Shown here: positions 5,379 through 25,631 of the stretch, piece by piece
Position numbering within the stretch: position 1 is the stretch's first letter
Layout: each line of letters starts with the position of its first letter
From: Clostridiales bacterium
GTDB taxonomy: Bacteria > Bacillota > Clostridia > Christensenellales > Aristaeellaceae
Length of the DNA stretch: 64,000 nt
Reading direction: 5' to 3'
NCBI GenBank assembly: GCA_015056085.1
Contig: SVHA01000001.1
Coordinates: 372,001-436,000, forward strand
Notes under the pieces: model-generated
The model's input: only the letters and a program-made list of their open reading frames with translations
Told to the model about the DNA's origin: nothing
Database searches by the model: none
Program-made: the position numbers and the translations under genes

Positions 5379-5447
5379 GTGGCTTGATGGTGCTCACACC
5401 GTGTCTCTTCACCCTGCATACCATGAAGGGAAACGGAGGTGTATGCC

Positions 5448-6029
5448 ATGATGTTTCCTCCCCCAAACCAGCTGCCCTGCACCTGCGGGCACTGCGCCCC
5501 GCCTGGGCCTTCGCCCTGCAAGGGCAGTGCTTTCCTGATGGGGCGTATTCTCTCCAGCGGCAGGCAATGGCAGAAGAATTGCGCCCTGTGCCTGGAAGTG
5601 ACCGGCCTGCCCGAGCACCTTCCCCCGCCGCTGACGCTGTGTCAGGTCAGCGCTGCGGACACCACAGACTGGGAAGCCGCCGATGACGGCTGCGGGCGGT
5701 GTTCGTCGCTGCTGATTGCCATTCCTCTCAAGTGCGTTGTGCGGGATGGCTGCGGATGCCTGCACAAGGGGAATGCGTGCATCACCACGCAGGTGGCGCT
5801 GAGAGGCGCCTGTTGCTTACCGGATGGCTGGCGAACCCGATTGGTGATTCTGCCCAGTGTGCGGCTGATGACGCCCTCCTGTCCGGCAGATTGTCCTGTG
5901 TTTGACGCGCGGTTGGAAGTGCTTACGGAGGTGTACCTGACAAGGTGGGAGGCAGTGACGGTACCACCATCGCCGTGTGAAGGGCAAGGAGACTTGCCGT
6001 TGTACCCGGAGCCTTGCAGGTGCAGGTGA
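5448..6029 (+). CDS. Cysteine- and proline-rich protein of unknown function
   Basis: 193 residues with about 20 cysteines, several in CxC or CxxC pairs (CTCGHC, CGRC, CGCL, CC, CRCR at the very end). There is no signal peptide or membrane segment. The ATG at 5448 has GGAGG 8 nt upstream, which supports a real gene; a second ATG follows at 5451. I do not recognise the family. A metal-binding, redox-crosslinked or spore-coat-like protein would fit the composition, but that is inference only. Its 3' end runs straight into repeat region A, and no promoter of its own is obvious after the yajC terminator. Confidence 0.7.
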   Translation: MMFPPPNQLPCTCGHCAPPGPSPCKGSAFLMGRILSSGRQWQKNCALCLEVTGLPEHLPPPLTLCQVSAADTTDWEAADDGCGRCSSLLIAIPLKCVVRDGCGCLHKGNACITTQVALRGACCLPDGWRTRLVILPSVRLMTPSCPADCPVFDARLEVLTEVYLTRWEAVTVPPSPCEGQGDLPLYPEPCRCR

Positions 6030-6107: not shown

Positions 6108-6606
6108 AAATCGTGCGGCGGCACAAAGAGAAGCCCCCCTCCGGGAGGGGGCTCCGCCGTCAGGCGGTGGAGGAGCCTGCGGTGCAGCGGGTATGATTTC
6201 TTGCAAGTGATAGCATTCGATGGGTGTTCTTTCTCAGGCCTGAGAAAGAACCAAAGAGGGCCAGAGGGGGTGTCTCAATTCATCCCACCCGGAGACACCC
6301 CCTCTGGACTCCCCCCTTTCCCCCGGTCTTGTGAGGGTTATTGGGTTGAGTTACCCTCAAGCGCCTCGCAGGGGCGGCCCGTTTCGGGGCTGCTCCGATG
6401 GAGTCCGTGTGCGGCGACGGAGCGCCGCACGCCGGAACTGTTGTGGAGATACTTGTCTGATGCCTGTTTCACGGTTTTGCCGCAAGTACCAGGGGGCTTT
6501 CCGATCGGTCCGCCTCCGCTTCGCTCCGGAAACTCGCCTTCGGCGACTGCCCACTGGGCAGTTCGTTTCCCCTGGACCCCTTCGGCCTGCATCCTTGTAA
6601 GTAGAC
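6108..6606. mobile_element. Non-coding palindromic element, copy 1
   Basis: Nearly the same sequence occurs at 23475-23923. Shared landmarks in order are: a double hairpin (AGCCCCCTC-CGG-GAGGGGGCT, then CCGCC-GTCA-GGCGG) at 6131-6168; a 24-bp perfect palindrome centred on TCAGGCCTGA (6229-6242); a 16-bp stem CCAGAGGGGGTGTCTC with its complement (6260-6307); and GTGCGGCG/CGCCGCAC near 6409-6430. No conserved reading frame or transposase is seen. This copy carries the 61-bp cassette at 6508-6568 and lacks the right-end double hairpin present in copy 2. It is best read as a non-autonomous element or structured RNA. Confidence 0.75.
6508..6568 (-). repeat. 61-bp three-hairpin cassette, copy 1 (inverted)
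   Basis: On the minus strand it runs from AAACGAACTGCCC to GGCGGAC and holds ACTGCCC-A-GTGGGCAGT, TCGCC-GAA-GGCGA and an imperfect third hairpin. Comparing with the same place in element copy 2 (23863-23890) shows that it is an insertion. By eye it differs from the other two copies at one base. Confidence 0.85.
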
Positions 6607-6911
6607 TTTACCGCAAGTAAAAAACCATTCTCTCAACAAACATGCTAATACCCCTTAATCCGAAGGGGGCCCGAAGGTTTCCAAAGGGCGATCGGAAAGC
6701 CCTTTGGTCGCCCGTGAGGGCGAAACCCACCTCGTATAACAACACAGTTTGAATGGAAAAAAACATACAAACAATCCCCCAAGCCTTCAAGGCTCGAGGT
6801 GATGGGTCAAGGGCCAAATAAGACTACTTGCATCCGAAGGGGTCCAGGGGGCGATCGGAAAGCCCCCTGGTTCTTCCAGCAAAGCCAAGCCAAATCCGTA
6901 AGACTACCCAA
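6607..6911. repeat. Repeat region A, right part: palindrome modules
   Basis: Holds a boundary motif CAACAAACATGCTAATAC (6633-6650) that recurs near 23287 and 24009, and the palindrome CCAAAGGGC/GCCCTTTGG with loop GATCGGAAA (6681-6707). It also holds a terminator-like hairpin (6774-6797) and a variant palindrome CCAGGGGGC/GCCCCCTGG with the same loop (6845-6871). The two palindromes differ by compensatory changes in the stem. No coding sequence is supported. Confidence 0.75.
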
Positions 6912-6947: not shown

Positions 6948-6957
6948 GTGATGGGTC

Positions 6958-7053
6958 AAGGGCCAATGGCCCTTGCGGGGTGCAGGGGCGGAGCCCCTGT
7001 CGGGGTGTGGGGCAGAGCCCCACAAAGGGTTTCCAAAGGGCAAAGCCCTTTGG
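6958..7053 (-). repeat. 3' UTR tandem palindrome array of gdhA
   Basis: Four stem-loops with 3-nt loops, centred at 7043, 7015, 6991 and 6966. Stems on the plus strand are CCAAAGGGC/GCCCTTTGG, GTGGGGC/GCCCCAC, CAGGGGC/GCCCCTG and AAGGGCC/GGCCCTT. The first hairpin begins at the base next to the gdhA stop codon. Confidence 0.85.
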
Positions 7054-8460
<1,407 letters not shown>

Positions 8461-10012: not shown

Positions 10013-12406
10013 ATGAAAATCCCTATGCAATGGATTGATCAGTATGCGTCCATCCCAGTGGATGCTCAAGTCTATCAGGACAAGATGATCATGATCGGCA
10101 ACGGCGTGGAAGGCTACGAAGAAGTCGGTCATGAGGTGCAGGGCGTTGTGGTGGGCCGTGTGCTGACCTGCGAGGATCACCCCGATTCCGATCACCTGCA
10201 CGTGACCACCGTGGATGTGGGCGAAGAAGTGCCGCTGAACATCGTCTGCGGCGCTCCCAACTGCAAGGAGGGCATTCTGGTGCCCGTGGCCAAGATTGGC
10301 GCCACGCTGCCCGGCGGCATCAAGATCAAGAAGGGCAAGCTCCGTGGCGTGGCCAGCGAAGGTATGCTCTGCGGCGGCGACGAGCTGGGCGTGCCGGTGG
10401 AACTGTATCCCCATGTGGGCAAGGAAGGCCTGCTGATTTTCAACGAAGAATACCCCGTGGGCAGCGACGTCAAGCCGATTCTGGGCATTGACGATACCGT
10501 GATGGACTTTGAAGTGCTGGCCAACCGCCCCGATTGCCTGAGCGTCTGGGGCATCGCCCGGGAAACGGCTGTGGCGCTGGGCACCCAGTTCAACAAGCCC
10601 GAAATCACCGTCAAGGAAGCAGACGGCGACATCCACGACCATGTGAAGGTGGAAGTGCTGGACAGCGACCTGTGCCCCCGCTATATGGCCCGGGTGGTCA
10701 AGAATGTCCGTGTGGCCCCCTCCCCTATGTGGCTTAGGAAGTATCTGAACGGCGCCGGAATGCGCTCCATCAACAATGTGGTGGACATCACCAACTTCAT
10801 CATGCTGGAGACGGGCCACCCCATGCACGCCTTTGACCTGGATATGGTGGAAGGCAACCACATTATTGTCCGCCGTGCGGTGGAAGGCGAGCACATCACC
10901 ACCCTGGACGGCAAGCAGCACGACCTGACCCCCGGTCAGCTGGTCATCTGCGACGCTGTCAAGCCTGCCTGCGTGGCCGGCGTGATGGGCGGCGAGGAAT
11001 CCGAAATCACCGAAAAGACCCACACCATGATGTTCGAGTGCGCCGTGTTTGACAGGGCCGCCACCCGTGTCACCAGCCGTGCGCTGGGCATCCGCACCGA
11101 GTCCTCCGGCCGGTTTGAAAAGGGCGTGTCCGTCAAGACGGTGGAAGAAGCCATGAATCGTGCCTGCCAGATGATCAACGAACTGGACGCCGGCGATGTG
11201 GTGCCCGGTGTGATCGATCTGTATCCCAATCCCGCCGAGGAAAAGGTCATCACTGCTTCCTGCCAGCGCATTGCCCGCCGCACCGGCGTGGACATTCCCG
11301 CTGACGACATCGTGCGCATCCTCAAGGACCTGCACTTTGGCGTGGAGCGTGACGGCGACACCCTCACCGTCACCGTGCCCGATTATCGTCAGGACGTGGA
11401 AGGCGAAGCGGATCTGTCCGAAGAGGCCCTGCGCGTCTACGGCTACAGCCACATCCCCGGCACGCTGCTGCGGGGCGACACCACCCCCGGCGGCCGCTCT
11501 GACCGGATGCGCCTGAAGGATGAAATCAGCCGTGTGCTCACCGGCATGGGCTTCTATGAGATCATGAAGTTCTCCTTTGTCAGCCCCAAGCAGATTGAAA
11601 AGCTGGGCCTGCCTGAAGGCGACGCCCGCCTGAACACCCTGGCCATCCGCAATCCTCTGGGCGAGGACACCTCCGTGATGCGCACCACGCTGGCGCCTGA
11701 TATGCTCTCCACGCTGGCGCTGAACATGAATCACGGCAACGAGGACGCCCGCCTGTACGAAGTGGCGGCGACCTTTGATCCCCTCAACCGCACGGAAGAA
11801 AACCTGCCCACCGAGACCCAGTGGCTGAGCCTGGGCATGTATGGCAAGAATGCTGATTTCTTCGCTCTGCGTGGCGTGGTGGAACGGCTGCTTGAGCATC
11901 TGGGCATCACCTGCCAGATCACCGCCGGCGCCGAGCCCTATCATCACCCCGGCCGCTGCGCTACTCTCACCTGCGGCGAAACGGTAGTGTGCACCATTGG
12001 TGAAGTGCATCCCGATGTGCGGGAGAAGTTTGATATGCCCAGCCGGGCGATCATTGCGGAGGTCAATCTGGCCGCAGTGGCACTTCTGCGCAAGCCCATG
12101 GGCGCTGTGAAGCCCATGCCCCGCTACCCTGCTGTGACCCGTGACCTGTCTCTGGTGATGGACGAGAGCACGCAGGTGGGCCCGCTGATGGCGGACATGG
12201 CTAAGGCTGGCGGTGCGATGCTGGAAGATGCGAAGATGTTTGACGTGTATCGCTCCGCCCAGCTGGGTGAAAACAAGAAGTCCGTGGCGTTCTCCTTTGT
12301 CTTCCGTGGTGCTGACCGCACCCTGACGGATGCGGAGATCTCCAAGGCGATGGAAAAGATCCTGAAGGCTGCTGCTGAAAAGCACAACGCCGTGATTCGT
12401 GGGTAA
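10013..12406 (+). CDS. pheT: Phenylalanine--tRNA ligase beta subunit
   Basis: 797 residues, normal length. Domains in order: tRNA-binding OB fold (about 40-150), B3/B4 editing domain (about 210-390), B5 (about 400-475), catalytic-like core (about 480-690), and a C-terminal ferredoxin-like anticodon-binding domain (about 705-797, MPRYPAVTRDLSLVMD onward). AAGGAGG lies 9 nt before the ATG. Cotranscribed with pheS under T-box control. The stop codon at 12404-12406 is followed with no gap by the longest palindrome array in the window. Confidence 0.96.
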   Translation: MKIPMQWIDQYASIPVDAQVYQDKMIMIGNGVEGYEEVGHEVQGVVVGRVLTCEDHPDSDHLHVTTVDVGEEVPLNIVCGAPNCKEGILVPVAKIGATLPGGIKIKKGKLRGVASEGMLCGGDELGVPVELYPHVGKEGLLIFNEEYPVGSDVKPILGIDDTVMDFEVLANRPDCLSVWGIARETAVALGTQFNKPEITVKEADGDIHDHVKVEVLDSDLCPRYMARVVKNVRVAPSPMWLRKYLNGAGMRSINNVVDITNFIMLETGHPMHAFDLDMVEGNHIIVRRAVEGEHITTLDGKQHDLTPGQLVICDAVKPACVAGVMGGEESEITEKTHTMMFECAVFDRAATRVTSRALGIRTESSGRFEKGVSVKTVEEAMNRACQMINELDAGDVVPGVIDLYPNPAEEKVITASCQRIARRTGVDIPADDIVRILKDLHFGVERDGDTLTVTVPDYRQDVEGEADLSEEALRVYGYSHIPGTLLRGDTTPGGRSDRMRLKDEISRVLTGMGFYEIMKFSFVSPKQIEKLGLPEGDARLNTLAIRNPLGEDTSVMRTTLAPDMLSTLALNMNHGNEDARLYEVAATFDPLNRTEENLPTETQWLSLGMYGKNADFFALRGVVERLLEHLGITCQITAGAEPYHHPGRCATLTCGETVVCTIGEVHPDVREKFDMPSRAIIAEVNLAAVALLRKPMGAVKPMPRYPAVTRDLSLVMDESTQVGPLMADMAKAGGAMLEDAKMFDVYRSAQLGENKKSVAFSFVFRGADRTLTDAEISKAMEKILKAAAEKHNAVIRG

Positions 12407-12609
12407 GCAGGGGCTCCGCCCCTGCACCCTACCAAAGGTCTTTGCCCCGCACCCCACCAGGGGGCTATGCCCCCTGGACCCCCTGTTGGGGGCACTGCCC
12501 CCAACACCCCCGCAAGGGTCTTCGACCCTTGACCCTTCAGCGGGGCGTTGCCCCGCACCCCAGTTGGGGCGCTGCCCCCAACACCCCCGCAAGGGGCATC
12601 GCCCCTTGA
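12407..12609 (+). repeat. 3' UTR tandem palindrome array of pheT
   Basis: Seven clear hairpins plus one degenerate unit (near 12441). Loop centres are at 12416, 12467, 12495, 12522, 12548, 12572 and 12599. Each has a 7-10 bp stem and a 3-nt loop: TCC, TAT, ACT, TTC, GTT, GCT, ATC. The stem nearest the loop is mostly GGGGC/GCCCC, while outer pairs change together (GCA..TGC, TGTT..AACA, GC..GC, TT..AA, CAA..TTG). Units are joined by ACCC-rich linkers. The first unit starts at the base after the stop codon. Confidence 0.9.
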
Positions 12610-12617
12610 CCCATCAC

Positions 12618-12655
12618 CCGGAAATCCTGATGGATTTCCGGGGATTTCTTTTTTT
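12618..12655 (+). terminator. Terminator at the end of the pheT array
   Basis: Arms CCGGAAATCC and GGATTTCCGG around TGAT, then GGATTTC and seven T. It is preceded by the TTGACCCATCACC linker also seen in the other arrays. Confidence 0.9.
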
Positions 12656-12789
12656 AGAGTTGTCTTATATTCGGTCTTGTCTTTGCCGGGGCTACCAGGG
12701 GGCTTTCCGGTCGCCCCCTGGACCCCTTCGGAGTCCCCTCCGTTGTTACTTGTCCGAACAATAAACAAAGGAAAATCCCCTTAACAAAA
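12656..12789. repeat. Repeat region B, left module
   Basis: Contains the inverted-orientation palindrome CCAGGGGGC/GCCCCCTGG (12698-12724) followed by ACCCCTTCGG, as in both copies of the 0.5-kb element. No gene is supported. Confidence 0.7.
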
Positions 12790-12993
12790 AATCCCCCAAG
12801 CCCATCAGGGCTTGGAGTGATGAGTCAAGGGCCAAATAAGACTACTTGCATCCGAAGGTTTCCAAAGGAAACGAACTGCCCAGTGGGCAGTCGCCGAAGG
12901 CGAGTTTCCGGAGCGAAGCGTAGGCGGACCGATCGGAAAGCCCTTTGGTCGCCCGTGAGGGCGAAACCCTGCCTTGCACAAAAGCACAGTTCG
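12790..12993. repeat. Duplicated unit, copy 1 (with 61-bp cassette)
   Basis: Runs from the terminator-like CCCCAAGCCC hairpin through GGGTCAAGGGCCAAATAAG..., the CCAAAGG palindrome and the TCGCCC-GTGA-GGGCGA hairpin. It is repeated directly at 13018-13158. This copy is longer because the 61-bp cassette interrupts its central palindrome. Confidence 0.85.
12869..12929 (+). repeat. 61-bp three-hairpin cassette, copy 2
   Basis: By eye identical to the copy at 23345-23405. It lies between TCCAAAGG and CGATCGG, where the neighbouring unit at 13084-13101 has a single G instead. Confidence 0.9.
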
Positions 12994-13017
12994 AAAGAAA
13001 AAACCCACACATAAACA

Positions 13018-13158
13018 ATCCCCCAAGCCCTTGGGCTTGGGGTGATGGGTCAAGGGCCAAATAAGACTACTTGCATCCGAAGGTTTCCAAAGGGCGATCG
13101 GAAAGCCCTTTGGTCGCCCGTGAGGGCGAAACCCCACCTTGTATAACAGCAAAATTCA
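13018..13158. repeat. Duplicated unit, copy 2 (uninterrupted)
   Basis: Matches 12790-12993 almost base for base apart from the cassette. It gives the empty-site sequence TCCAAAGGGCGATCGG. On the minus strand the unit ends in a CCCCAAGCCC hairpin and a T-containing tract, so it may also terminate transcription. Confidence 0.85.
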
Positions 13159-13179
13159 ACGAGAAAATTCAACTCAAAT

Positions 13180-13207
13180 AAAATCCCCCAAGCCCTTGGG
13201 CTTGGGG
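13180..13207 (-). terminator. Terminator at the end of the gfo array
   Basis: Perfect palindrome with arms CCCCAAGCCC/GGGCTTGGGG (13186-13207), then GATTTTATTT on the minus strand. Confidence 0.8.
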
Positions 13208-13216
13208 TAATGGGTC

Positions 13217-13341
13217 AAGGGCCAATGGCCCTTGCGGGGGTATCGGGGGCAGCGCCCCCGATTGGGATTCCAAAGGGCAAAGCCCTTTGGTGGGGTGCGG
13301 GGCAAAGCCCCGCGAAAGGGGTGCAGGGGCAGCGCCCCTGG
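13217..13341 (-). repeat. 3' UTR tandem palindrome array of the distal gfo gene
   Basis: Five hairpins with 3-nt loops centred at 13332, 13305, 13280, 13252 and 13225. Plus-strand stems are CAGGGGC/GCCCCTG, GCGGGGC/GCCCCGC, CAAAGGGC/GCCCTTTG, CGGGGGC/GCCCCCG and AAGGGCC/GGCCCTT. The array begins 3-4 nt after the stop codon and faces the pheT array across the convergent intergenic region. Confidence 0.88.
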
Positions 13342-13344
13342 TGG

Positions 13345-14442
13345 TTAATACACCTTGCCCAGTTCCAGGGTCTTCCGGGACTGATAGCCCTTGCGGAGTT
13401 CCACCTCATGCCCGCAGTCAGACGCCTCGTGGAAGGCGCACATCAGGTCAAGCACATGGAAGGTCTGCTCATAGCTGCAGCGAGGCATACGTCCCTCCTG
13501 CAGGGCTTCGCACATTTCCACCACGCCCAGGCCGCGGCTGTTGTCCCAATAAGTACCCATGATGGGAACTTCTTCATACTTGCTGATGCCGGGACGGAGA
13601 ATCTTGACGGGACCGCCGAATTCGTTGGGATCAGGAATGAGCAGCGAGCCACGGGAGCCGAACACCTCGACGGTCGCCCAGCGATCATCATAGCAGTCAA
13701 AGGAGGTCGTCAGCGTGGCAATGGCGCCGTTTTCAAAGCGCATGACGCCGGCGATATGGGTGGGCACTTCCACGTCGATCATGGTGCCATTGAGAGGCTC
13801 GGAAGTGATCTTGCGCTGGGGGAAAGTGATGTTGGTGCAGGCAGTGACAGACTTCACGGGGCCGATCAGGTTGATCAGCGCCGTGAGGTAGTACGGACCC
13901 ATGTCGAACATGGGACCGCCGCCCACCTTGTAATAGAAACCGGGGTCGGGATGCCAACTCTCATGACCATGATTACGCATGGAGGCATTGGCAGCGACGA
14001 CCTCGCCGATCCAGCCGTCCTCTATGAGCTTTATGCAGGTCTGGATACCAGCGCCCAGGAAGGTATCCGGCGCACCGCCCAGCATCAGGCCCTTTTCCTT
14101 GGCCAGCGCCACCTGCTTCTCGCCGTCTTCGCGGTTGATCGCCAGAGGCTTTTCGCAATAAGCGTGCTTGCCGGCATTGAGCGCCATGGTGTTCACCAGG
14201 CAATGCTGATCCGGCGTGGTCAGGTTCACGATCAGTTCGATCTCCTCATCCGCCATGACCTCTTCGTCAGTGAAATACGCCTTGGGAATCTTATAGGTTT
14301 CCTGGGCCTTGAGGGCACGCTCGGGGATCAGGTCGCAAACCGCCACCACTTCCACGGCACGGCGGAACTTTTGGGTGAAGTTCGTCAGATAGATGCCGCT
14401 GATATTACCGCAGCCGACAATACCGATTTTCATGCGTTTCAT
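13345..14442 (-). CDS. Gfo/Idh/MocA family oxidoreductase (distal)
   Basis: 365 residues. The N-terminal NAD(P)-binding Rossmann motif is GIVGCGNISG and the family EKP motif appears as YCEKPLAIN. Members oxidise or reduce sugars, inositols or sugar derivatives. Where most members have a catalytic DxGxH stretch this one reads MFDMGPYYLTAL, so the usual histidine is replaced by tyrosine. The start at 14442 has GGAGG 8 nt upstream. It is the last gene of the five-gene operon, 14 nt after the thuA-like stop, and is followed by a palindrome array. The substrate is unknown. Confidence 0.88.
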   Translation of the reverse strand: MKRMKIGIVGCGNISGIYLTNFTQKFRRAVEVVAVCDLIPERALKAQETYKIPKAYFTDEEVMADEEIELIVNLTTPDQHCLVNTMALNAGKHAYCEKPLAINREDGEKQVALAKEKGLMLGGAPDTFLGAGIQTCIKLIEDGWIGEVVAANASMRNHGHESWHPDPGFYYKVGGGPMFDMGPYYLTALINLIGPVKSVTACTNITFPQRKITSEPLNGTMIDVEVPTHIAGVMRFENGAIATLTTSFDCYDDRWATVEVFGSRGSLLIPDPNEFGGPVKILRPGISKYEEVPIMGTYWDNSRGLGVVEMCEALQEGRMPRCSYEQTFHVLDLMCAFHEASDCGHEVELRKGYQSRKTLELGKVY

Positions 14443-23491: not shown

Positions 23492-23989
23492 AACAAACAA
23501 AAAGCCCCCTCCGGGAGGGGGCTCCGCCGTCAGGCGGTGGGGGAACCTGCGCTGCTGCGGGTATGACCTCTTGCAAGGGATATTGTTTGTTGGGTGTTCT
23601 TTCTCAGGCCTGAGAAAGAACCAAAGAGGGCCAGAGGGGGTGTCTCAATTCATCCAACCCGGAGACACCCCCTCTGGACTCCCCCCTTTCCCCCGGTCTT
23701 GTGAGAGTTATTGAGTTGACTGACCCTCAAGCGCCTCGCGGGGGCGGCCCGTTTCGGGGGCGCTCCGATGGAGTCCGTGTGCGGCGACGGAGCGCCGCAC
23801 GCCGGAACTGTTGTGGAGGTTGTTGTCTGATGCCTGTTTCACGGTTTTGCCGATACAACCAGGGGGCTTTCCGATCGCCCCCTGGACCCCTTCGGTCTGC
23901 ATCCTTGTAAGTAGTCTTTTCCGCAGCAGGACAATCCCCCACCGCCTAACGGCGGAGCCCCCTTTACACAAGGGGGCCTTTGTTTGTTT
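23492..23989. mobile_element. Non-coding palindromic element, copy 2, with inverted terminal repeats
   Basis: Closely matches 6130-6606 in sequence and order of hairpins. The ends are inverted repeats of about 50 bp: 23492-23543 (ACAAACAAAAAGCCCCCT..., CCGCC-GTCA-GGCGG, TGGGGG) and 23936-23989 (CCCCCACCGCC-TAA-C-GGCGG..., AGGGGGCC, TTTGTTTGTTTG). Each end read outward is a GC hairpin followed by a T-rich tract, so each could terminate transcription entering from inside. No open frame is conserved between copies. This copy has the empty form of the inner CCAGGGGGC palindrome (23861-23887). Confidence 0.75.
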
Positions 23990-24139: not shown

Positions 24140-24177
24140 CTATATAAAAACAATCCCCCAAGCCCTTGGGCTTGGGG
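24140..24177 (-). terminator. Terminator at the end of the dnaA array
   Basis: Perfect palindrome with arms CCCCAAGCCC/GGGCTTGGGG (24156-24177), then GATTGTTTTTATA on the minus strand. Confidence 0.85.
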
Positions 24178-24187
24178 TGATGGGTCA

Positions 24188-24299
24188 AGGGCCAATGGCC
24201 CTTGCGGGGTGCAGGGGCGGCGCCCCTGCCGGGGTGTGGGGCAGAGCCCCACAAAGGGGTGTCGGGGACGTAGTCCCTGACCAGGGGCAGCGCCCCTGA
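24188..24299 (-). repeat. 3' UTR tandem palindrome array of dnaA
   Basis: Five hairpins with 3-nt loops centred at 24290, 24271, 24244, 24220 and 24195. Plus-strand stems are CAGGGGC/GCCCCTG, TCGGGGAC/GTCCCTGA, GTGGGGC/GCCCCAC, GCAGGGGC/GCCCCTGC and AAGGGCC/GGCCCTT. The array starts within 2 nt of the dnaA stop codon. The unit furthest from the gene is the same in the gdhA, gfo and dnaA arrays. Confidence 0.88.
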
Positions 24300-25631
24300 T
24301 TACTTTCCTTCGACAATCAGGCTGCGCAGGTCGTTGACCACATTGGCCACACCGGCGTCCTTCTTAATGTTTTCCGCAATGATGTTGCAGGCGTGCAGCA
24401 CCGTGGAATGATCTCTTCCGCCAAAGGCCTGACCGATCTGCGGCAGGGACATATTCGTCAGGTCACGGGTGAGATACATGGCATACTGCCGGGGAACGGC
24501 GAATTCCCTGCGGCGGGTGGGACGAATCAGATCATCCACCGTGATGGCGTAGTATTCCGCCACCACCTGCATCACCGCCTGGGCCGTCACTTCCCGCTTG
24601 GCGGGCGTCACGAACAGATCCGCAAGGGCCTCGTTGCACAGTTCCACCGTGATGGGGCGATGCACCAGATCAGCGTAGGCCTTCAGGCGAATCAGGCAGC
24701 CTTCCAGCTCACGGATGTTGTTAGCCACATGGGTGGCGATGATCTCCAGCACGTCATCCCCCACGGCGATATGCTCCTGCTGGGCCTTCTCCCTAAGAAT
24801 GGCGATGCGGGTTTCGATGTCGGGACGCTTGACATCCGCCTGCAGACCCCAGGCAAAGCGGCTGCGCAGACGCTCTTCCAGTCGGGCGATTTCCTGGGGC
24901 GGACGGTCAGATGTGAGGATGATCTGCTTGTGGGCGTTGTACAGGGTATTGAAGGTGTGGAAGAATTCTTCCTGGGTGCTTTCCTTGCCGGCGATAAACT
25001 GAATGTCGTCCACCATCAGCACATCCACATTGCGGAAGCGGGCGCGGAATTCAATGGTGCGCTTGTTCTGAATGGCGTCGATCAGTTCATGAGTGAAGGT
25101 TTCGCCGGGGATATAGAGAATCTGCTTTTCGGGATACTGCTGGCGGATATAGTGGCCCACAGCGTGCATCAGATGAGTCTTGCCCAGGCCCACGCCGCCA
25201 TAAATAAACAGGGGGTTGTAGGCGTCAGCAGGGGATTCCGCCACGGCCAGGGCCGCCGCATAAGCAAAGCGGTTGCCGCCGCCCACCACGAAATTGTCAA
25301 AGGTATACTTGGGATTGAGGGGGCACTGGCTGTCCCCGGACTGCATGACGGCGTCATTGGCGGCCTGCAGCTGGTCCAGCTCAGACTTGGTCAGCAGGGC
25401 CACTTCCACGGGCATACCCGCCGCCTGAGAGACGGAGGCAGCGATCATGGGGGCATACTTCTGGTTGACCATGGTCTTCATATTTTCCAGCGCGACACGC
25501 AAAAGAAGGGTGTTGCCGTCCAGCTTTTCAGCCGTCAGGTTATCCCCGATCCAGGTTCTGTAGGAAACCGTGTTCATTTCCTGCTTGAGCAATTCGCAGG
25601 CTTGTGCCCAAAGTTCCTTGACGTCCATCAT
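24300..25631 (-). CDS. dnaA: Chromosomal replication initiator DnaA
   Basis: 443 residues. Domain I is at 1-80, a linker follows, then the AAA+ domain with Walker A GGVGLGKTHL and Walker B VDDIQFI. The C-terminal DNA-binding domain carries the signature GGRDHSTVLHACN. It binds DnaA boxes at oriC and opens the origin. The start at 25631 has GGAGG 6 nt upstream; the longer frame is not supported. dnaN does not follow: the next features on the same strand are a palindrome array, repeats and a glycosidase gene. A cluster of DnaA boxes lies upstream, fitting both the origin and autoregulation. Confidence 0.97.
   Translation of the reverse strand: MMDVKELWAQACELLKQEMNTVSYRTWIGDNLTAEKLDGNTLLLRVALENMKTMVNQKYAPMIAASVSQAAGMPVEVALLTKSELDQLQAANDAVMQSGDSQCPLNPKYTFDNFVVGGGNRFAYAAALAVAESPADAYNPLFIYGGVGLGKTHLMHAVGHYIRQQYPEKQILYIPGETFTHELIDAIQNKRTIEFRARFRNVDVLMVDDIQFIAGKESTQEEFFHTFNTLYNAHKQIILTSDRPPQEIARLEERLRSRFAWGLQADVKRPDIETRIAILREKAQQEHIAVGDDVLEIIATHVANNIRELEGCLIRLKAYADLVHRPITVELCNEALADLFVTPAKREVTAQAVMQVVAEYYAITVDDLIRPTRRREFAVPRQYAMYLTRDLTNMSLPQIGQAFGGRDHSTVLHACNIIAENIKKDAGVANVVNDLRSLIVEGK

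Follow-up and report, generated by a model that had tools for sequence, protein, structure and literature searches.

REP-like tandem hairpin arrays begin directly at stop codons in a Christensenellales-like genome

REP-type repeats are a long-standing puzzle, viewed either as selfish DNA or as 3'-end regulators. REPs lie predominantly in the gaps of convergent and codirectional gene pairs, and those of the GTAG type often provide the stop codon (PMC3733652). In E. coli, REPs less than 16 nt from the stop (within 15 nt) stall ribosomes and lower translation, as stated where PMC12306157 cites Liang 2015, and REP hairpins stabilise RNA 3' ends (PMC13289151). BIMEs alternate REP orientation at regular spacing (PMC2817692). 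Hairpin clusters near stop codons have been reported as terminators, which are commoner in GC-rich genomes (Gupta and Pal 2021, PMC8355165). Here we describe rows of GC hairpins that begin directly past stop codons. The earlier note on this DNA knew of no such arrays. For tandem, stop-anchored arrays the open-licence literature gave us no description beyond REPs; stop-adjacent palindromes as such are already familiar from REPs (PMC3733652 and the quoted part of PMC12306157).

The window, by which we mean the whole stretch of 64,000 nt that was analysed (G000:C10:372001-436000), belongs to a Christensenellales-like MAG of 2.08 Mb that is 94.8% complete. The closest relatives of its pheT gene are found in Clostridia/Christensenellaceae MAGs, many of them from the guts of deer and other ruminants. 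The sample of this one MAG was read in stretches and covers 1.198 Mb of the 2.08 Mb (58%); all array counts (n=102) refer to this 1.2-Mb sample. Genes were called by our own simple hexamer-based caller, for which starts and very small genes are approximate and the stop positions of long genes robust. The following features of the window are needed below.

12404..12406, plus strand: pheT stop codon TAA, ancestral, with the C-terminus aligned in congeners
12407..12609, plus strand: pheT 3' array of 7 intact loop-3 hairpins and one degenerate unit
12590..12608, plus strand: terminal unit of the pheT array, CAAGGGGC-ATC-GCCCCTTG, of the type that closes 95 of 102 arrays
12617..12655, plus strand: intrinsic terminator past the pheT array, hairpin CCCGGAAATCC..GGATTTCCGGG and then a T-run
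12656..13214, no strand: middle of the convergent gap pheT/gfo, made of other dispersed repeats with tens of copies in 1.2 Mb
13215..13342, minus strand: opposing array, directly after the stop (13345-13347) of a Gfo/Idh/MocA gene
6956..7053, minus strand: array directly after the stop (7054-7056) of a Glu/Leu dehydrogenase (gdhA) gene
24185..24299, minus strand: array directly after the dnaA stop (24300-24302)
24146..24178, minus strand: terminator-like hairpin CCCCAAGCCC..GGGCTTGGGG with T-run, closing the dnaA array

The pheT array starts at the first base past the stop. All seven loop centres given in the earlier note (12416, 12467, 12495, 12522, 12548, 12572 and 12599) proved exact, and the further arrays that it named are indeed there, after the stops of gdhA at 7054, of the distal gfo gene at 13345 and of dnaA at 24300. 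The 51-nt first gap of the pheT array contains the eighth, degenerate unit, near 12431-12453. With a predicted folding energy of -147 kcal/mol (z -8.5), this 3' region is highly stable. When the window was searched with the Rfam covariance models at gathering thresholds, a tRNA was the sole match and the hairpins had none; a known Rfam RNA family was thus rejected.

The gaps of the window hold other sequence as well. At 5439-6029 on the plus strand, a 196-aa cysteine-rich ORF without Pfam match lies in a gap that has an array on one side only. At 6671-6711 and in other gap middles we found a dispersed hairpin module, CGAAGGTTTCCAAAGGGCGATCGGAAAGCCCTTTGGTCGCCCGTGAGGGCGAAACC, whose loop often holds a longer palindromic insert; human-gut phage contigs contain short near-identical stretches of it, and other genera have modules that are similar (L025, L122). 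A repeat of ~400-470 bp, present at ~6130-6600 and 23500-23900, is intergenic only and has a flat coverage of ~31 copies per 1.2 Mb; it resembles a separate mobile unit, non-coding and nested between the arrays.

We counted 14 copies of the core GGGGCNNNGCCCC in the window, where 0.5 are expected, and 666 genome-wide, compared with 4 for the reversed control pattern; 296 order-mates mostly contain 0-5 and at most 118 copies. The 1.2-Mb sample contains 102 directional arrays of 2-10 units (mean 5.2 loop-3 hairpins), with all units of one array in a single orientation and their centres almost always 24-29 nt apart. The hairpins are separated by less than 15 nt, with linkers of a few nt and the array start at 0 nt from the stop. 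Stop-abutting starts read, in sense, TGA-CCAGGGGC.., TAA-GCAGGGGC.. and TGA-CCAAAGGGC... About a dozen stem types are reused across loci. The unpaired positions of the sense strand are poor in G (~10% overall), with 61% C and 11% G in the linkers and 83% pyrimidine in the loops. At the distal end, 95 of the 102 arrays close with a near-invariant hairpin, CAAGGG(C/T/G)C..CCCTTG, typically followed by ACCCAT(C/T)ACCC, and an intrinsic terminator (hairpin and T-run) is present within 90 nt past 97 of the 102. Stop codon and terminator thus bracket the array. The initial description of the arrays stands; it had missed the constant last hairpin, the terminator, the inward-facing pairs and the repeat-filled gaps. 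The convergent gap C10 527593-527904 has no middle, and its two facing arrays join into a single long palindrome, CCTCTGGACTCCGCTTGTGGGGC-AGA-GCCCCACAAGCGGAGTCCAGAGG.

For 79 array genes the first hairpin lies at a median distance of 0 nt from the stop, compared with 16 nt and a broad spread for 101 ordinary terminators of other genes. The distance is 0 nt in 27 of the 79 genes and -2 in 17; the latter value is probably 0 in reality, one mismatch having been allowed. Where the distance is 24-30 nt, a degenerate first unit mostly appears to occupy position 0. Ten arrays start after a T-run rather than at the stop and may lie beyond an older terminator. We found 78 arrays to be anchored in sense on a stop of their own strand and 0 that are anchored only in antisense, so that the claimed regard for stop codon and strand is borne out.

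Of the 122 convergent gaps 38 contain units, as do 16 of the 696 codirectional and none of the 124 divergent ones, and the median length of convergent gaps is 1128 bp with arrays versus 69 bp without. Arrays occupy the two ends of the same convergent gap 30 times, where independence of the ends would predict 9.5. The usual arrangement is two inward-facing arrays that flank other dispersed repeats, usually hundreds of bases apart. Genes of the sample contain 31 unit-like matches versus ~560 in the gaps.

Exact 45-mers are common to different arrays, with 95 of the 102 involved, and exact 100-mers are common to different gaps (42 of 62). Three window gaps used as queries furnished 1222 repeat HSPs in 1.2 Mb, 0 of them in genes, and the space between two opposing arrays is repeat sequence too. 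The shared words and the dispersed HSPs show copying between loci. Plasmid or phage relatives were rejected: the plasmid matches of a 133-nt array query were all weak and short, and the gap repeats gave no plasmid matches and only 36-71-bp matches in human-gut phage contigs.

A separate observation concerns C10:1-339000 (loci L042-L058), upstream of the window. These 339 kb contain no array or gap repeat (0 of the 1222 HSPs), arrays occur in 0 of 29 convergent gaps versus 38 of 93 elsewhere (Fisher p 4e-6), and between 150 and 200 kb GC3 falls to 0.70. The stretch could be an exclusion zone of the kind found at a terminus, the result of a recent replacement, or part of a chimeric contig.

Pairing was analysed in 323 distinct intergenic cores, for whose selection only the inner four pairs were used. 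At pairs 6-8, a fraction of 0.81-0.88 of the cores is Watson-Crick versus 0.29-0.33 expected. All four pair types are represented, and the pairing weakens towards pairs 9-10; for cores within genes there is no excess. For 60 distinct units we counted 116 two-sided versus 5 one-sided pair changes (cells), numbers that overstate independence, since a dozen stem types recur and the independent events are far fewer. The covariation score of these units is 0.433, compared with 0.116 for shuffled and at most 0.111 for slid structures. The excess of compensatory over one-sided changes on which the earlier note had built its case is hence present. If the fold of a transcript were selected, G-U should be tolerated over A-C. 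Among the non-Watson-Crick cells of 149 distinct units, read in sense, G-U is not enriched over A-C (22 vs 42), and the congeners give the same result (4 vs 7). Part of the A-C count at pair 6 likely reflects arms of unequal C-run length; there is no G-U excess regardless. This counts against RNA-fold selection, which we rejected as far as it would be seen in a G-U excess. With stem types and 45-mers shared and no G-U excess, copying and palindrome maintenance explain the covariation as well as RNA-fold selection does; judged from the units, templated palindrome correction or plain module copying would account for it at least as well. Of the two origins originally proposed, a selected fold finds no G-U enrichment on its side, while units copied and diverging under a pairing constraint fit best.

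The C-terminus of DnaA aligns in 17 of 17 genomes with an ortholog. The array is present in 2 of these 17 (this genome and G310), both times at the stop, and the 15 other orthologs run on into other sequence, mostly ordinary terminators. A pheT array was found in 4 of the 9 genomes with a close ortholog (G000, G302, G306 and G299), at the stop, and the stems differ. The first stem of G302 and G306, CCTAAGGGG..CCCCTTAGG, takes in the end of the last codon and the stop, and in G299 the first stem is an imperfect version of it. By these alignments the dnaA and pheT stops are ancestral and only some congeners have the array. An element that supplies the stop codon was rejected for both genes because their C-termini align with those of array-free orthologs. 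The architecture recurs in 180 kb sampled from G302 and 218 kb from G310, although the arrays are shorter there and the stems are others; 21 of 25 first hairpins have a distance of -5 to +7 nt to the stop.

The exact tandem-pair pattern occurs in 35 of 200 family genomes and 14 of 50 genera. This genome has 315 tandem pairs, its 199 family-mates at most 32 and the congeners listed 0-15. Of 397 further genomes from across the phylum, 1 gave a single match, which resembles one long palindrome, and we rejected a wide distribution across the phylum. The array pattern is a family-level trait that is strongly amplified in the source species. Similar units may exist in Desulfovibrio and Acetobacteraceae. 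As a side observation, the best PheT match in G297, G298, G300, G301, G303, G305, G307, G308 and G312 is 29-37% identical to the PheT of the window, and that in the other congeners 80-86%; judging by the former group, pheT was possibly replaced within the genus.

The sequences directly show the architecture with its terminator, the anchoring at stops, the strand, the bias to convergent gaps, the sharing among loci and the gain or loss between species. On this basis we favour, with a probability of roughly 0.6, a lineage-specific family of interspersed palindromic repeats that forms 3'-end cassettes, is copied between gene ends and serves as a 3'-UTR barrier. In sense, a cassette consists of the stop, a head-to-tail row of 2-10 GC hairpins whose linkers are C-rich and whose 3-nt loops are rich in pyrimidines, the near-invariant last hairpin (CAAGGG..CCCTTG) and an intrinsic terminator. 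Whole or partial cassettes would be copied between gene ends and displace what natively lay between stop and terminator, chiefly at convergent junctions, where two cassettes would then face each other. The stems would diversify with pairing kept, either through intrastrand palindrome correction or through selection for the hairpin. Because the array precedes the terminator, we infer from this position that it is present in the 3' UTR of the mature mRNA. It could there form a structural barrier where the reading frame ends, limiting both the entry of 3' exonucleases and read-through into the gene opposite. Such a barrier between convergent genes would be the most economical reading, and the arrays may function as 3'-UTR barrier or as termination insulator. 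We offer this account of transcription, function and copying mechanism as a proposal.

The 0-nt boundary is the least explained feature; ordinary copying does not account for it. The type of the boundary unit tracks the stop codon (CCA-type after TGA 30:7, GCA-type after TAA 8:3, Fisher p 0.002), yet the orthologs show that the stop itself is old. One may speculate about a mobile palindrome system that recognises gene ends and is gained repeatedly, exactly past pre-existing stops, on the sense strand and without RAYT, an idea that we consider rather unlikely. If true, it would call for a novel mechanism of insertion or gene conversion that is linked with translation termination or with the 3' ends of mRNAs, and Christensenellales would possess a modular 3'-UTR architecture of their own. 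Concerning known enzymes, this 94.8%-complete MAG gave no PF01797 (Y1_Tnp) match, and thus no RAYT, and RVT_1 is absent from the genome. Y1_Tnp matches occur in 6 of 17 congeners; that of G310, the one protein read, resembles IS200-type TnpA, and the loci of G310 and G297, the two read, are not flanked by arrays. Mobilisation by a RAYT or a retroelement was rejected on these grounds.

The main rival to the barrier reading is a selfish or neutral repeat tolerated in a safe place. Palindromes would spread by recombination and templated copying and persist where they are least harmful, without benefit to the host. A patchy and explosive copy number (315 tandem pairs here vs at most 32 in 199 family-mates), entire gaps filled with repeats and none in genes, the absent G-U signature and array starts at a boundary of functional sequence (the stop codon, or the T-run in 10 cases) agree with this. 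We nevertheless hold it to be unlikely on the whole: strict sense orientation, the near-constant last hairpin and the terminator past 97 of 102 arrays resemble a maintained unit, and neutral insertion would leave remnants of the native 3' UTR between stop and array, which most arrays lack.

A hairpin that abuts the stop might instead slow or stall terminating ribosomes and so tune output and mRNA cleavage. The first hairpin at 0 nt would suit such a translation-coupled element, and stalling is published for REPs <16 nt from the stop (PMC12306157, where it cites Liang 2015). The first hairpin alone could act in this way, however, which leaves the other units and the conserved last unit unexplained. 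The RNA-fold signature is absent and the array genes identified (pheT, gdhA, the Gfo/Idh/MocA gene and dnaA) are diverse, so that we regard this role as improbable. Doubtful, too, is Rho-dependent or clustered-hairpin termination, in which C-rich, G-poor linkers between the hairpins would recruit Rho or slow the polymerase and insulate convergent genes. The composition of linkers and loops, restricted to the sense strand, the enrichment of convergent gaps and the known hairpin clusters near stops (PMC8355165) are consistent with it, but with an intrinsic terminator already past 97 of 102 arrays, the arrays would be redundant. For a role at the DNA level, cruciforms or gyrase-type sites would absorb supercoils between convergent genes, as proposed for BIMEs. 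The enrichment of convergent gaps and the absent RNA-specific pairing signature fit this picture, which we nonetheless judge very unlikely, as strand-specific loops and linkers and sense-only anchoring are unexpected for a strand-symmetric DNA site. Chance, assembly artefact or contamination we dismiss, for although the genome is a MAG in which some contigs end in or near arrays and 339 kb of the same contig lack them, the core counts (14 vs 0.5 in the window, 666 vs 4 genome-wide), the covariation (0.433 vs 0.116 shuffled) and the same architecture in separately binned congeners speak against them.

The lineage is an extreme case among REP-type repeats, with a readable grammar of stop, variable hairpins, constant last hairpin and terminator. 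It offers states with and without the array at the same ancestral stop in sister species, and a genome without RAYT. Two questions thereby become testable: how palindromes arrive at gene ends without a RAYT, and whether a row of hairpins abutting the stop has an effect on mRNA stability, termination or translation.

Compared with known systems, the arrays share most with REPs. Both are short GC palindromes, hundreds per genome, extragenic and lineage-specific, and both lie downstream of genes in convergent or codirectional, not divergent, gaps; some REPs are also within 15 nt of the stop or supply it (PMC3733652 and the quoted part of PMC12306157). The arrays differ in being directional, head-to-tail rows that begin 0 nt past the stop; they use a dozen stem types and 3-nt loops, and a constant last unit and a terminator close them. 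When the unit catalogue was inspected, a GTAG/CGTC tag at the palindrome end was absent; the unit ends are of CCA/GCA/GTC/TGC types, followed by ACCCC-like linkers. With BIMEs and REPINs the arrays have in common a composite with inverted halves and a mosaic of modules, but BIMEs alternate REP orientation, whereas here each array keeps one orientation, and opposite orientations are seen only between the two arrays that share a gap. Clustered-hairpin terminators (PMC8355165) likewise place hairpin clusters near the stop codon. They are, however, predicted per gene and form no repeat family, while here the stems are common to loci and a separate U-tract terminator lies downstream. The TAACTGA direct repeats of Beggiatoaceae (PMC4679880) are also intergenic repeat arrays able to overlap stops, but they are heptamer direct repeats that mostly face start codons, not GC hairpins. 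Since tag, RAYT and alternating orientation all fail, we do not file the arrays as REPs sensu stricto. They are a REP-like 3'-end cassette, a new form that is akin to REPs in location and copy number.
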